Below are positions 10,021 to 32,885 of a stretch of DNA of 34,099 nt, in pieces; the first letter of the stretch is position 1; each line of letters starts with the position of its first letter. A program made the translations under genes and the position numbers. Source of the stretch: an uncultured Erysipelotrichaceae bacterium (GTDB taxonomy: Bacteria > Bacillota_I > Bacilli_A > Erysipelotrichales > Coprobacillaceae); assembly GCA_947074115.1 (NCBI GenBank), contig CAMTOK010000011.1, positions 1 through 34,099 of the forward strand, in the 5' to 3' direction. The notes under the pieces are model-generated. The model worked only from the letters and a program-made list of their open reading frames with translations. It searched no databases and had not been told where the DNA came from.

Positions 10021-10262
10021 AAATAAAAAAACTCGCTTTGAGGACGTCTAAACGTGTTACCACCCCAATTTGCTATACCTTCACAAGTACAACCTTAGCA
10101 AGTTTGAAACTTTCATAGATAACGTTATGACCCGGTTATTTTTGAAATAACACTCCTTGGTGTATTCAAAATCTCATCACGTATGATTTTCACCTGCCAT
10201 CATATCTCTTCATGTCACTAAGATTTTTACTTGTCCATATCAACGATTTCTTTATTTCTATA
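10021..10262 (-). promoter_or_regulatory. T-box leader (probable UAC/Tyr specifier) of the TrpXYZ-like operon
   Basis: Read on the minus strand, this leader has the loop-E pair AGUA ... GAA flanking a short stem (AAAAUC/GAUUUU), placing the specifier triplet directly after GAA. That triplet is UAC (complement of 10162-10164), followed by the expected purine A. The T-box sequence GGGGUGGUAACACG lies at 10066-10053, and a U-run follows at 10030-10021. The UGGU in the T-box would pair with an A73 discriminator, which fits tRNA-Tyr but not tRNA-Trp (G73). Uncharged tRNA would then promote readthrough into the importer genes. ACA (Thr) is the next-best reading of the specifier. Confidence 0.85.
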
Positions 10263-14373: not shown

Positions 14374-14420
14374 TAAAAAATTCCTCCTATAGATTTGTGT
14401 AGTTACTATAGAGACATACC

Positions 14421-14545
14421 GAGTGAAATTTGTTTAATGATTGCTCATTATCTTTGCTCACTGTTTAGGTAGTATGATACCTCCAGATCATCCGCCGAAT
14501 ATTTCGATAAATCTGGTCCTCGTCAACTCATAGAGTCCTGGCGCT
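14421..14545 (-). ncRNA. glmS self-cleaving ribozyme/riboswitch
   Basis: Read on the minus strand, AGCGCCAGGACU begins at 14545, with the expected cleavage between A (14545) and G (14544). The conserved core GUUGACGAGGA follows, then UUAUCGAA and UUCGGCGGAUG, which form the double-pseudoknot active site. A hairpin GGUAUCAUACUACC and a longer P4-type arm (AGUGA...UCACU) end near 14421. The class cleaves its own mRNA when glucosamine-6-phosphate is bound. All core blocks are intact. Confidence 0.95.
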
Positions 14546-14683
14546 AAGTCTTTTGCTTTCTCTAAGTAACGTGATTAATTATACATATTATTTTATGCGA
14601 GTGTTTTCATATGTTGAAACAATAAACCCATATTTTTATGAAATAATACAAAATCATCTATTTTAATTAAACTATGTCGACTA

Positions 14684-22898: not shown

Positions 22899-22903
22899 GT
22901 ATT

Positions 22904-22990
22904 CGAGCCAGGGGTGCGTCATGCTGAGAAAGGTTTACCTTATCCCTTATCATCTGAACTGGATAATGCCAGCGTAGAGAGTGCAAATAG
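22904..22990 (+). promoter_or_regulatory. TPP (THI element) riboswitch
   Basis: The conserved blocks GGGGTGC (22911-22917), GCTGAGA (22923-22929), CTGAACTGGATAATGCCAGC and GTAGAGA are in the right order for a thiamine pyrophosphate aptamer. The following hairpin (22999-23029) is the expression platform. TPP binding would favour termination and shut off thiT. Confidence 0.95.
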
Positions 22991-22998
22991 ACCGTTTT

Positions 22999-29077: not shown

Positions 29078-30538
29078 ATGAGTGAATTAGATTTAATCAA
29101 TCTTTATTTTAATATAATTGATTTAAATGAACCTGCTATCGTAAGAGGTGTCACTAAAAGTTATCAATCAAACCAACAATTTGTTGAATGGTTAAACCAA
29201 AGAGGTTTAGAATTTTCTTCTTTGTTATTAATCAATGATGATATCATATCAACATTAAAAGCCAACTCTTCTTTAGATGATATTGCGAGTAAAATAGAAT
29301 CGCCATTTAAAGAGGAATGTGCAACATTTTCAAGACATTATAAGAGTCAGATGCATGTCGTTTATATCGGTAATGGAGAACAGGTAATAGATCAAGAGAA
29401 GTGTCGTTTAATTCATCCATATTTTTATTCAATAGAATATCAAAAAGAAGCAAGTAGCTTTTCATTCTTTGATCCATTTGCATCATTCATAGGTGCACTT
29501 ACACATATAGAAATGTGGCCAGGCGTATTGATTTTTAATGATCAACATCATTCTTTTGTCTCAATAAATAGTCAAAAAGAATTAGAAGATATCTTAAAAT
29601 CAGTAGGAAAAGGAAATGATTTATTTAAAAAGTATTCATCATTAGATAATGATTCTTATTATATTCAAATCAGTGATCTCCATCTTGGAAGAGGAAAAAG
29701 AAAGACAGGGTTAAATCAATTAAGAGCGTCTCTCTATCAATTGTCTCTTTATTTACATTCACCTTATCCATTAAAATATCTCATCACAGGAGATTTAATG
29801 GAGTCACCTAATCGAAAGAATATGTATTTAGCTAATGATTTTATGAATGAATTAAAGAAGAAATATCATGCCGATGTGACATTTGTACTCGGGAATCATG
29901 ATGTTATTGTGCATGGATTTAACTTTGCAAGACGTCAAAAGAGTAAAGTTATTGCTTATCTTCTTGGAGAAAGTATCAAAGTATTAGAGAAAGAAAAAGT
30001 CATTATTATTAAACTTGATACTACAAGTGAAGGTAATCTTGCAAGAGGAAAAGTTGGACAACGTCAACTCGATGAGATTGATGATGAATTATCAGCAATT
30101 GAAAACGTTGATGAATACACGAAGATTGCCATTTTACATCACCATGTTCATCCATTGACTAAGGCACAGTTTCTCAAACTAAAATGGAATGAAAAGACTT
30201 TTATAGGACGTTTAATAGAAAAGTCAAAAGTATTGGTTGATGCACCGCTTTTAATCAATTGGTTAGAAGAAAGAAATATACAATATGTTTTTCATGGACA
30301 TAAACATGTTCCTTTCTTTAAACGTATTCATAATATCGTTTATGTAGGGGCTGGGAGTGCTACAGGCGGTTTAAAAGAAAGTAAAAGTCGTTATATTTCA
30401 TATAACGTCATGAAATACAGTATGGAAGAAAAGAAGATGAAATCATGTTTGATCTTCTATGATGATAAAGCAAAAGCAGAGAGACAAAGGGTAGAAGTCT
30501 ATCTGTATGAGGAGGAAGACAATGAAAATAATGGATAA
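29078..30538 (+). CDS. Calcineurin-like metallophosphoesterase with an unknown N-terminal domain
   Basis: A 486-residue protein. Residues about 195-440 are a two-metal phosphoesterase: SDLHLG (D200, H202), GDLME (D239), GNHD (N273, H274), the HHH at 354-356 and GHKH (407-410) give a full set of metal and catalytic ligands. Residues 1-190 form a separate alpha/beta region I do not recognise. No signal peptide or membrane segment is seen, so it acts in the cytosol. The substrate is unknown; nucleic acids, cyclic nucleotides and phosphoproteins are all possible in this fold. A good ribosome site (AAAGGGGTAAGG) precedes the ATG. Its last 17 bases overlap the dehydrogenase gene, so the two products probably work together. 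Confidence 0.8.
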   Translation: MSELDLINLYFNIIDLNEPAIVRGVTKSYQSNQQFVEWLNQRGLEFSSLLLINDDIISTLKANSSLDDIASKIESPFKEECATFSRHYKSQMHVVYIGNGEQVIDQEKCRLIHPYFYSIEYQKEASSFSFFDPFASFIGALTHIEMWPGVLIFNDQHHSFVSINSQKELEDILKSVGKGNDLFKKYSSLDNDSYYIQISDLHLGRGKRKTGLNQLRASLYQLSLYLHSPYPLKYLITGDLMESPNRKNMYLANDFMNELKKKYHADVTFVLGNHDVIVHGFNFARRQKSKVIAYLLGESIKVLEKEKVIIIKLDTTSEGNLARGKVGQRQLDEIDDELSAIENVDEYTKIAILHHHVHPLTKAQFLKLKWNEKTFIGRLIEKSKVLVDAPLLINWLEERNIQYVFHGHKHVPFFKRIHNIVYVGAGSATGGLKESKSRYISYNVMKYSMEEKKMKSCLIFYDDKAKAERQRVEVYLYEEEDNENNG

Positions 30539-31910
30539 AATGAAAGATGAAGATCTAGGAATTGCATTATTATATAATTTTACTTTAGGGTATGAACAAC
30601 CTGTACCAATGGATGTTTATGATTTGGTGTTACCATTTCTTTATAATGACGCTATAAGAGATTCATTATTAAACTATGAAACAATCGAACATATGTTGTT
30701 AGAACAACAAATTAACAATCATGATTTTAATGGTCAAATGATAAAAGGCGTTAAAGATTATAGAGATATGACAACACGTTCATTAGGAATTGCATTGTTA
30801 CAGAAAGTATTGGCATTTGATTTTGTAGAGAATGTCATGTGTGGCCGTGCATTAGAGTCTTCAATTCTTCAATTAAATGAAGCAAAGCATTTAGGTAAAT
30901 TATTAAAAGGAAAAACATTTAATCAAGTTTATCAATTGTTCTTAAGTTTGAAAAAGAAAATTGTTATTCTCCAAAGCTCATCAGTAGGTGAAGATATAGA
31001 TTTGTCATTTTTCCATAGCTTAGGTGATGTTGTTATGTATGAAACAACAGAACAAGATCAGATTATTGATTATATAAAAGATGCTCATATTGTTGTGACA
31101 AATAAAAACAAACTTGGTCAAAAAGAACTTAGTGAATGTTATCAATTAGAATTGATCTGTTTGTTTGCGACAGGTGTTAATAATATTGATTTGGATTACT
31201 GTGAAGAAAGAGGAATCGGTGTGTGTAATGTTAAAGGATACTCAACTGATACTGTTGCTCAACATACATTTGCGTTGGCCTTAAGCCTCATAGATCAAAT
31301 CCAAAAATATGATCAATTTATAAAGGCAAAAGAATATGTTAACTGTGGATCGTTTTCATATTTTGATTATACGTTCCACGATGTCTCATCAATGACATGG
31401 GGTATTGTCGGTATGGGTGATATTGGTAAAAAGGTTGCTGAAATTGCAAGAGCGTTTGGTGCCAATGTTCAATATTTTTCAACAAGTGGTTTAAATCAAG
31501 TAGGTGATTACAAACGTGTTGATTTTGATGAGTTATTAGCAACGTCTGATATGATTTCAATTCATGCACCATTGTATGATAAAACGCAATACTTATTTAA
31601 TGCAGAAGCATTTTCTAAAATGAAAAAGAATGCAATGATTATTAATGTAGGGCGTGGTGGAATTATAGATGAACAAGCACTTGTGGATGCGTTAAATCAA
31701 CAACTTATTAGTGGTGCTGGATTAGATGTCTTTGAACATGAGCCATTATTAGAAACTGATCCTATTTATTCATTACAAAACATGGATCAAGTTGTCTTAA
31801 CACCTCACGTAGCATGGGGAAGTCAAGAAGCAAGACAACGTTGTGTAGAGGAAGTTTACAAAAATATAGAAGCACATTTAAAGGGTGCAAAGAGAAATAG
31901 GGTCGTTTAG
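30522..31910 (+). CDS. D-2-hydroxyacid dehydrogenase with an extra N-terminal helical domain
   Basis: A 462-residue protein. Residues about 144-455 are a complete NAD-dependent D-2-hydroxyacid dehydrogenase: GMGDIG gives G297-x-G299-xx-G302 for NAD binding, and R378 (NVGRGG), a Glu in FEHEP (405/407) and H429 (TPHVAW) form the catalytic triad. It would interconvert a 2-keto acid and a D-2-hydroxyacid (glycerate, lactate or similar; not resolvable here). Residues 1-143 are an all-helical extension absent from ordinary members, which start near residue 144. It contains LVLPFLYNDAIRDSLL (35-50) and YRDMTTRSLGIALLQKV (80-96). The ATG at 30522 follows GGAGG by six bases; an ATG 15 bases upstream is too close to that site. 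It overlaps the phosphoesterase gene by 17 bases. Confidence 0.85.
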   Translation: MKIMDKMKDEDLGIALLYNFTLGYEQPVPMDVYDLVLPFLYNDAIRDSLLNYETIEHMLLEQQINNHDFNGQMIKGVKDYRDMTTRSLGIALLQKVLAFDFVENVMCGRALESSILQLNEAKHLGKLLKGKTFNQVYQLFLSLKKKIVILQSSSVGEDIDLSFFHSLGDVVMYETTEQDQIIDYIKDAHIVVTNKNKLGQKELSECYQLELICLFATGVNNIDLDYCEERGIGVCNVKGYSTDTVAQHTFALALSLIDQIQKYDQFIKAKEYVNCGSFSYFDYTFHDVSSMTWGIVGMGDIGKKVAEIARAFGANVQYFSTSGLNQVGDYKRVDFDELLATSDMISIHAPLYDKTQYLFNAEAFSKMKKNAMIINVGRGGIIDEQALVDALNQQLISGAGLDVFEHEPLLETDPIYSLQNMDQVVLTPHVAWGSQEARQRCVEEVYKNIEAHLKGAKRNRVV

Positions 31911-31922
31911 ACCCTTTTTTCT
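31898..31922 (+). terminator. Terminator of the phosphoesterase-dehydrogenase unit
   Basis: AGGGTC/GACCCT with a GTTTA loop and six T overlaps the dehydrogenase stop codon. Confidence 0.85.
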
Positions 31923-31950
31923 TGCTTAAATAGGAAAAAACAAGTATATT
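31922..31950 (+). promoter_or_regulatory. Promoter of the folT-like gene
   Basis: TTGCTT at 31922-31927 and TATATT at 31945-31950 are 17 bases apart. Transcription would start near 31957 and run through the Shine-Dalgarno at 31969-31973 and then the transposon remnant before reaching the start codon. Confidence 0.6.
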
Positions 31951-31968
31951 TTGTTTATATCAAAAAAA

Positions 31969-31973
31969 GGAGG
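31969..31973 (+). promoter_or_regulatory. Stranded Shine-Dalgarno (GGAGG) 105 bases from the folT-like ATG
   Basis: AAAGGAGGA is the only strong ribosome site between the promoter and the folT-like gene, but no start codon follows it at usable spacing. Without 31976-32074 it would stand six bases from the ATG at 32079. Confidence 0.6.
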
Positions 31974-31975
31974 AG

Positions 31976-32032
31976 TCTACGTCAGTAGCAAGAATGTACG
32001 GTCTTAGATCGGAATTAACGCCTGTGGACTAG
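31976..32032 (+). pseudogene. 3'-terminal fragment of an IS605-family tnpB
   Basis: The frame STSVARMYGLRSELTPVD-stop resembles the C-terminal tail of many Bacillota TnpB proteins (a G-x-(R/S)-x-ELTPVE-like ending). Only these 18 codons remain; no RuvC or zinc-finger part is present upstream, where the sequence passes into a promoter and terminator. It overlaps the omega-RNA scaffold as in intact elements. Recognition is from memory of the family, not from a search. Confidence 0.6.
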
Positions 32033-32074
32033 AAATGAGGGTGAAGCAGGAATTTGCTTAATGTAGCAGTACAG
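31976..32074 (+). ncRNA. Orphan omega-RNA scaffold / right end of an IS200/IS605-family element
   Basis: GCCTGTGGA (32020-32028), then GAAGCAGGAA (32043-32052), then a small stem TGCT/AGCA and GTAC follow the order seen at the 3' end of tnpB genes. There the transcript forms the guide RNA of the TnpB nuclease, with the guide taken from the sequence just past the right end. The terminal stem is much weaker than in active elements, and no tnpA or intact tnpB is in the window. It now lies in the 5' leader of the folT-like gene. Confidence 0.65.
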
Positions 32075-32078
32075 TATT

Positions 32079-32885
32079 ATGGAGCAATTAATTTGTATTA
32101 TTTTAATTATCGCATTAGGTTTTTATGTTTTTAAATGTTTTCCTTTTCCAAAAGGAAAAGTCAATTATGTTGTTATCGCAGCATTGTTTATTGTCTTAAC
32201 TCTTATTTGTAAAAGTTTAGCAATCAAGGTCCCTTTGTTTGGGGTTGAAAGTTTAAAAATAAGTGTTGAGTATATTCCATTAATGGTAGCAGGTATTTTT
32301 TTACCACCTAGCTATGCATTTATTATTGGGTTAAGTTGTGATTTAATCGGTCTGATTTTAGTCCCAACAAGTTTCCCGTTCTTAGGATTTACACTCGGAT
32401 TAATTCTGGTTAGTGTCATTCCATCATTAATTAAAGAATATTCAAAATTTATTGATGCAAAATATGTAGAGAAATTCTCAATCATCTTAATATGGATTTT
32501 GGCTATTGGAGCATCAACTTACATATACTTTTTAAAACAATTTGAATTATCAAAACAAGTGTACTATATAACAACTTTTCAAAAAAGTTTATTAACAATC
32601 ATTTGTTTTGGACTTGCATTTGTTTTTACTGTGATTCTTATTCAATTAAAGAAAAGAATCAAAATAGAGGAAGGAAAAGATTTTGCGATTTGGATGTTAA
32701 GTGTTGTGATTGTTGAAATTGTTGTGACACTATGTATAACACCATTGAATTTACAAATCATGTATGGTATACCATTCCTTGTCTCTATGTGTATAAGAAT
32801 CATAAAAGCGTGTTTTGTTATTCCGCTTAATATATTCTTAGGTTATACAATTATAAAATTTATGAAAAAAATGATTAAACTCTAA
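32079..32885 (+). CDS. ECF transporter S-component, FolT-like
   Basis: A 268-residue membrane protein with about seven to eight helices. The stretch SLKISVEYIPLMVAGIFLPPSYAFIIGLSCDLIGLILVP (about 57-95, seen in pieces) matches the S-component pattern of the folate-family ECF transporters: a strand and loop, a helix with AGxFxPP, then GxxxDxxG. It would bind a vitamin (folate by family look) and rely on an ECF ATPase module encoded elsewhere. It is longer than typical FolT (about 170-200 residues) because of extra C-terminal helices. The ATG at 32079 is the only start: an in-frame TAG lies at 32064, and no Shine-Dalgarno lies nearby. A strong terminator follows. Confidence 0.7.
   Translation: MEQLICIILIIALGFYVFKCFPFPKGKVNYVVIAALFIVLTLICKSLAIKVPLFGVESLKISVEYIPLMVAGIFLPPSYAFIIGLSCDLIGLILVPTSFPFLGFTLGLILVSVIPSLIKEYSKFIDAKYVEKFSIILIWILAIGASTYIYFLKQFELSKQVYYITTFQKSLLTIICFGLAFVFTVILIQLKKRIKIEEGKDFAIWMLSVVIVEIVVTLCITPLNLQIMYGIPFLVSMCIRIIKACFVIPLNIFLGYTIIKFMKKMIKL

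Follow-up and report, generated by a model that had tools for sequence, protein, structure and literature searches.

A folT leader probably domesticated from the guide RNA of an IS607-type transposon

A Shine-Dalgarno sequence that lies far from its start codon can be brought near it: RNA structure does so in T4 genes, and splicing does so in the c-di-GMP group I intron of C. difficile. Among transposon RNAs, RAGATH-18 is the reRNA of IS607 TnpB, for which 5′-AGGAG is the target motif in 18 of 22 strains (PMC11061315), and the RAGATH-18 kink-turn (k-turn) has been crystallised (PMC8191799). Domestication of TnpB has so far been described via the protein, as in Cas12 and in TldR, the TnpB-derived RNA-guided repressors (PMC13418256). 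In the folT leader described here, what has survived seems to be the guide-RNA scaffold alone, now a cis-acting element of the mRNA and swapped against a classical riboswitch. The best explanation for the locus as a whole, to which we assign a probability of about 0.6, is a domesticated remnant of an IS607-type (or close IS605) element that acts as a cis translational switch of folT.

The window, a 34,099-nt stretch of DNA from an uncultured Erysipelotrichaceae bacterium, contains folT (32079-32885, + strand), which encodes the 268-aa S component of a folate-family ECF transporter (TIGR04518, E 9.3e-36; PDB 4z7f, a folate ECF transporter, E 8e-4). Its ATG is located at 32079-32081 and a GGAGG at 31969-31973, with the blocks GCCTGTGGA and GAAGCAGGAA in between, all as the earlier note had read them. 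The Shine-Dalgarno sequence AAAGGAGGAG (also given as AAAGGAGG; 31966-31975, +) includes AGGAG, lies ~105 nt 5′ of the folT ATG, and marks the left boundary of the leader element. It pairs with the anti-Shine-Dalgarno at -11.8 kcal/mol, compared with a median of -8.2 kcal/mol for those ORFs in the window that begin with ATG and encode 150 aa or more (best value over the first four starts), while the final 20 nt before the ATG yield +0.1 kcal/mol, i.e., no pairing. Thus, the sole strong Shine-Dalgarno for folT is 5′ of the element, and the AUG is without one of its own.

Upstream, an intrinsic terminator of the preceding D-2-hydroxyacid dehydrogenase gene (31899-31915, +; three terminator-like sites found versus 0.4 expected) indicates that folT is probably a separate transcript. 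The 17-base-spaced promoter TTGCTT-N17-TATATT proposed before is not returned by a consensus scan, in which promoter-like matches in the leader region are no more frequent than in shuffled sequence. In the adjacent region 29078-31910, a phosphoesterase partly resembles the anti-phage family NF053862 below its cut-off, and the N-terminus of the neighboring dehydrogenase resembles the ABC-3C middle component 3 (PF20131), just under cut-off; PADLOC returned nothing convincing for this pair. Elsewhere, the window holds ordinary RNAs, namely a T-box leader (10037-10252, -), a glmS ribozyme (14412-14556, -), and a TPP riboswitch (22900-22998, +).

The center of the leader is a 59-nt core that resembles omega-RNA and reRNA (31994-32052, +). 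It scores 87.4 bits with covariance model R1, built from folT leaders only, and 51.3 bits with the reciprocal model R3, built from tnpB-adjacent 3′-end RNAs only. The core is composed of UGUA, hairpin Pa, GAAUUAACG, helix Pb with the k-turn, the GNRA-capped Pc, and GAA. Pa (CGGUC-UUA-GAUCG; 31999-32011, +) has a loop that varies in length in relatives. Pb (CCUGU/GCAGG; 32021-32050, +) displays compensatory changes in four of its five pairs and harbors the k-turn, formed by UGGA (32025-32028) and GAAG (32043-32046) with a 3-nt bulge (32040-32042, +), in the same layout as in the crystallised RAGATH-18 k-turn. The mini-hairpin Pc (CUAGAAAUGAG; 32029-32039, +) stands in place of the long inner arm of the transposon RNA; it is capped by a GAAA tetraloop, and the Pc loop is mostly GNRA among the leaders.

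Two further helices can be drawn from the flanks. The P1 5′ strand GUCUAC (31975-31980, +), assessed by flank pairing against shuffled flanks, can pair with GUAGC on the 3′ side (32063-32067) or with a local GUAG (31985-31988) to form a 5′ hairpin. Likewise, the P2 5′ strand AGCAA (31987-31991, +) has its partner in UUGCU (32054-32058, +), of which UGCU (32055-32058) may instead pair with AGCA (32065-32068) in a 3′ hairpin that excludes P2. GUAGCA (32063-32068, +) comprises the P1 3′ strand and corresponds to the terminus GAGTAGCAG at the right end of IS607 in relatives. Direct repeats of the GUAGCAA type flank the core, so P1 and P2 would compete with the possible local 5′ and 3′ hairpins; most single 3′ hairpins are not significant. 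In one genus, Faecalibacillus, the folT leader contains three tandem cores spaced by 6-10 nt, whereas the Eggerthia leader is minimal.

Comparative analyses support this fold. Pa and Pb are backed by compensatory changes: 8 of 12 pairs vary on both sides and 97.5% of cells are paired, values that none of 500 shuffles equalled by any measure. The P2 strands change jointly between clades (AGCAAA/UUUGCU, CAAUC/GAUUG, UAGAA/UUCUA). Moreover, cognate 5′ and 3′ flanks out-pair exchanged ones in all 5000 trials (-10.7 versus -8.4 kcal/mol, relatedness ignored). The window leader by itself folds no better than its shuffles (z 0.76); the case for the fold therefore rests on comparison and covariation. 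Rfam searches of the window leader gave no family at a meaningful level up to E 5. An upstream ORF of the form AUG/GUG-UAC-GGN was rejected as a conserved feature, as the start exists and the reading frame is not kept among the leaders.

By nucleotide similarity, the leader is seen in 27 of 37 genomes of the source family, source genome counted, and R1 gives high-scoring matches to it for 33 of 43 genomes in the family, spread over 13 of 20 genera. A broader R1 tally of 36 genomes and 16 genera takes in genomes with tnpB-type matches only. The family includes Thomasclavelia, Massilimicrobiota, Faecalibacillus, Longibaculum, Stoquefichus, and Eggerthia. Among the loci fetched, strong R1 matches sit upstream of a folT orthologue, and in 392 genomes sampled across the phylum they are confined to the source family. 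With model R2, whose leaders include two from the sister family, the sister family comes to five genomes with a folT leader, and sister-family leaders look intermediate (GAAUUUACG, GGAGUG..CAC). One of the five (L152, genome G621) is a variant whose Shine-Dalgarno overlaps the Pb 3′ strand instead of lying 5′ of the element, which suggests plain sequestration. Plasmid and phage collections gave no informative match, and no folT leader of such a kind was found in the open-licence literature.

Conservation in 13 genera and the sister family argues that the leader is a selected regulatory RNA and its insertion ancient. A recent IS scar is thereby ruled out; of the origin put forward in the earlier note, the loss of the transposon body stands. 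Remnants do persist, as exemplified by solo omega-RNA-like cores with no tnpB detected at five loci of relatives (L151, L158, L159, L164, and L166). Nevertheless, we consider it barely credible that an inert IS remnant lies in the folT 5′ UTR by chance, given a core that is near-invariant in 13 genera with compensatory changes, its tandem copies, the folT-exclusive association, and a Shine-Dalgarno kept at the far edge. In one of the solo cores (L166:3478-3567, L101), the 3′ strand contains the ATG of a HigA-like XRE antitoxin ORF.

The kinship of the core with TnpB guide RNAs was assessed in both directions, including by the covariance search that the earlier note had suggested as a check. 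In the 2.1-Mb source genome, R3 has a single match, which is the window leader core at 31994-32052 (E 3.3e-8), and it also matches every other folT-leader locus tested. Conversely, R1 matches tnpB 3′ ends, more weakly than folT leaders, and seven of its eight non-folT matches in the 392-genome phylum sample are tnpB 3′ ends. In the IS607 copies L046, L103, L110, and L162, the core follows closely 3′ of the tnpB stop, and Rfam names the L046 core RAGATH-18. The RAGATH-18 model (RF03064) matches five of seven tested leaders at the right place with 25-31 bits, below its gathering score of 44.9 bits, and has no match to the window leader up to E 5. The conserved core nucleotides are largely those of the transposon RNA. 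Given the agreement of R1 and R3 and these sub-threshold RAGATH-18 matches, the leader core is very likely homologous to the TnpB guide-RNA scaffold and the product of an ancient domestication. An IS607-type element with its RAGATH-18 reRNA is the best-fitting source, the core being common to IS605 too.

This likeness is at the RNA level, not coding. The earlier note had read the last 18 codons of tnpB here, yet that frame (MYGLRSELTPVD, then a stop) is not kept in other leaders, and in intact IS607 copies the tnpB stop is 5′ of the core. A coding tnpB tail was accordingly dismissed, as it is not conserved as protein.

Because the core keeps the nucleotides of TnpB-bound RNAs, the folT leader might be processed into a guide that serves TnpB, or a nuclease-dead TldR, in trans. 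A search of the source genome for tnpB, likewise suggested in the earlier note, returned no PF07282 or PF01385 match, and no TnpB-domain match that could represent a TldR with its guide. PF01385 also has no match in 24 of the 33 leader genomes, the source genome among them, and the would-be guide of the leader has no second genomic site within two mismatches. With neither tnpB nor a second guide site found in the source genome, a retained guide is unlikely. Further, the scaffold is without the long arm and the long 3′ part of the reRNA (PMC11061315), and the spacing of the tandem units is too short for guides. Taken together, these findings make a function as guide in trans highly improbable.

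The insertion site points to the IS607 family. Intact IS607 copies from relatives begin directly 3′ of AGGAG or GGAGG in seven of seven cases. Their right end reads TTTTGAGT(A/G)GCAG or, as a variant, TTTTTAGTAGCAG, and each of the 10 distinct flanks has an ATG 3-10 nt farther on; for seven of these flanks a script confirmed that a frame of 40 aa or longer is open, and three were read by eye. The folT leader terminates in GAGTAGCA or GTAGCA ~8-12 nt ahead of the folT ATG and thus matches an IS607 insertion both in position and in its right terminus. As IS607 copies insert directly after AGGAG, which is also a Shine-Dalgarno, and before ATGs, the split of the folT ribosome-binding site is accounted for. 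The insertion between Shine-Dalgarno and start codon that the earlier note had postulated is hence matched by intact elements. Loci L169-L178, L046, L153-L156, and L162 carry intact IS607 copies between AGGAG or GGAGG and an ATG, as the target motif predicts, and insertion at such sites may be a general habit of the IS607 family in this order. The leader 5′ hairpin was rejected as an IS607 left end, since the left ends of intact copies differ.

A 19-nt stretch, AAGAAAGGAGAGTCTACTC, located just 5′ of the core in the sister-family leaders L149 and L150, recurs without mismatch inside tnpB (KKGEST codons; L169, L172, and L175), an identity reached in 0 of 2000 shuffles. A deletion between two AAAGGAG repeats may have left this match behind. 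At L178 (genome G026, contig C17), the right end of a tnpB-less IS607-like core lies 6 nt upstream of an ATG that opens a 135-aa ORF, possibly as a second domestication or as a small non-autonomous element.

The findings on kinship and position also bear on whether the leader is a native folT regulatory RNA that has no transposon kinship and resembles omega-RNA through convergence on a k-turn. K-turns recur in unrelated RNAs, and the leader is old and gene-specific, as a native RNA would be. However, the likeness covers all 59 nt of the core, including UGUA-hairpin-GAAUUWACG outside the k-turn, and the reciprocal models, the tnpB 3′ ends among the non-folT matches, and the correctly placed RAGATH-18 matches all speak for kinship. 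As the element, moreover, is placed like an IS607 insertion and carries the left motif and right terminus of one, convergence is improbable. Conservation across genera before folT, which the earlier note had set against a transposon origin, was found and does not exclude that origin; both are true.

In relatives, the leader seems to replace a folate-sensing THF riboswitch before folT. Of 37 genomes from the family, the leader is present in 27, a THF riboswitch in eight, both in none, and neither in two (one of them 69% complete). The riboswitch therefore occurs in 8 of 10 leaderless family genomes, compared with 0 of the 27 that carry the leader (Fisher p 1.2e-6, not corrected for relatedness). 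None was detected in 11 further leader genomes, in a run without its own positive control genome whose model had matched relatives earlier, and the THF-I model (RF01831) has no match in the whole source genome. The THF riboswitches of relatives mostly precede shorter ECF S-component genes (~180 aa).

This exchange has to be weighed against control of the leader by a protein. A host k-turn-binding protein of the L7Ae family, or another RNA-binding protein, could stabilise the core and set translation: every k-turn residue is kept in the leader, and the isolated RAGATH-18 k-turn binds archaeal AfL7Ae (PMC8191799). Restriction to folT and the trade against the THF riboswitch instead point to a signal related to folate, and we regard protein control as rather unlikely.

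Our preferred reading, the domesticated transposon remnant, can be laid out as follows. An ancestor in common with the sister family would have received an IS607-type or closely related IS605 element immediately 3′ of the folT Shine-Dalgarno AGGAG. Tnp genes tnpA and tnpB would then have been lost, with the compact guide-RNA core and right end kept and conserved as a protein-independent, cis-acting RNA. Ribosomes are predicted to initiate folT from the Shine-Dalgarno that borders the element on its 5′ side. In the putative on state, a folded core with P2 and P1 closed would loop out 80-90 nt (~220 nt in triple-core leaders) and place the Shine-Dalgarno beside the AUG. In the putative off state, the 5′ hairpin (CUAC/GUAG) and the 3′ hairpin (UUGCU/AGCA) would form, leaving the Shine-Dalgarno ~105 nt away. 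A folate-related signal probably sets the balance between the two, given that the element takes the place of the THF riboswitch before a folate transporter gene.

Cis-acting control of folT translation by the leader is likely; looping, switching, its direction, and the ligand are inferred. Of the three roles that the earlier note had offered, the translational regulator is the one supported, whereas the inert scar is contradicted by the covarying conservation and the retained guide is made unlikely by the failure to find tnpB or a second site in the source genome. The leader is a conserved, structured 5′ element tied to one metabolic gene family, as is characteristic of a riboswitch. A direct folate-type ligand is conceivable, though we hold it only tentatively. 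With similar reserve, we suggest that the leader might represent a new metabolite-riboswitch class, the third of folate type, with a domesticated TnpB guide-RNA scaffold as aptamer; such a switch would work by drawing a remote Shine-Dalgarno up to the start codon. Among the conserved core nucleotides, no binding pocket specific to the leader is apparent, and since these are largely those of the transposon RNA, a specialised ligand pocket is less likely and a structural or protein-bound role possible. Moreover, a switch that folds to turn on would need a folate-shortage signal or an unfolding ligand, unlike most vitamin-transporter riboswitches.

As the AGGAG motif is a Shine-Dalgarno, IS607 insertions separate a ribosome-binding site from its start codon and place a compact folded RNA exactly at the position of a translational switch, which suggests why such domestication can happen. 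The origin of a regulatory RNA class thereby becomes directly testable. If the riboswitch reading is true, this would be the first transposon guide RNA made into a ligand-controlled mRNA switch without its protein.

Compared with known systems, the leader is closest to the RAGATH-18/IS607 TnpB reRNA (RF03064; PMC11061315). Both possess the CCUGU/GCAGG helix, the GGA/GAUGAA k-turn with UGUA-hairpin-GAAUUWACG 5′ of it, the right end GAGTAGCA, and AGGAG on the left. In contrast to the reRNA, the leader has no adjoining tnpB, its inner arm is cut to a GNRA mini-hairpin, and the 3′ part with pseudoknots PK1 and PK2 is missing (PMC11061315); it scores below the Rfam gathering score, is fixed before folT, and occurs in tandem in one genus. 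The core is shared with IS200/IS605 omega-RNA as well, being found in five IS605-type tnpB ends of relatives (L104-L107 and L157), from which the leader differs by the same absence of tnpB, reduced inner arm, missing 3′ part, fixation before folT, and tandem arrangement. Several IS605 copies are less like the leader, because they have AUAGGG..CCCGAAU where it has UGUAC-hairpin-GGAAU. TldR repressors likewise derive host gene control from a TnpB system, but they keep the protein and their guide acts in trans, whereas the leader is RNA alone and in cis (PMC13418256). The THF-I riboswitch (RF01831) is also a folT leader, often in folC/folT neighborhoods, and in relatives it is the alternative to this leader; its sequence and fold are unrelated, and its transporter gene is mostly the shorter one. 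As in the T4 genes and the c-di-GMP intron, the Shine-Dalgarno is far in sequence and would be near in the folded RNA, as it is in folded or spliced RNA there; in the folT leader, however, there is no splicing, and the bridge is transposon-derived and conserved over many genera.
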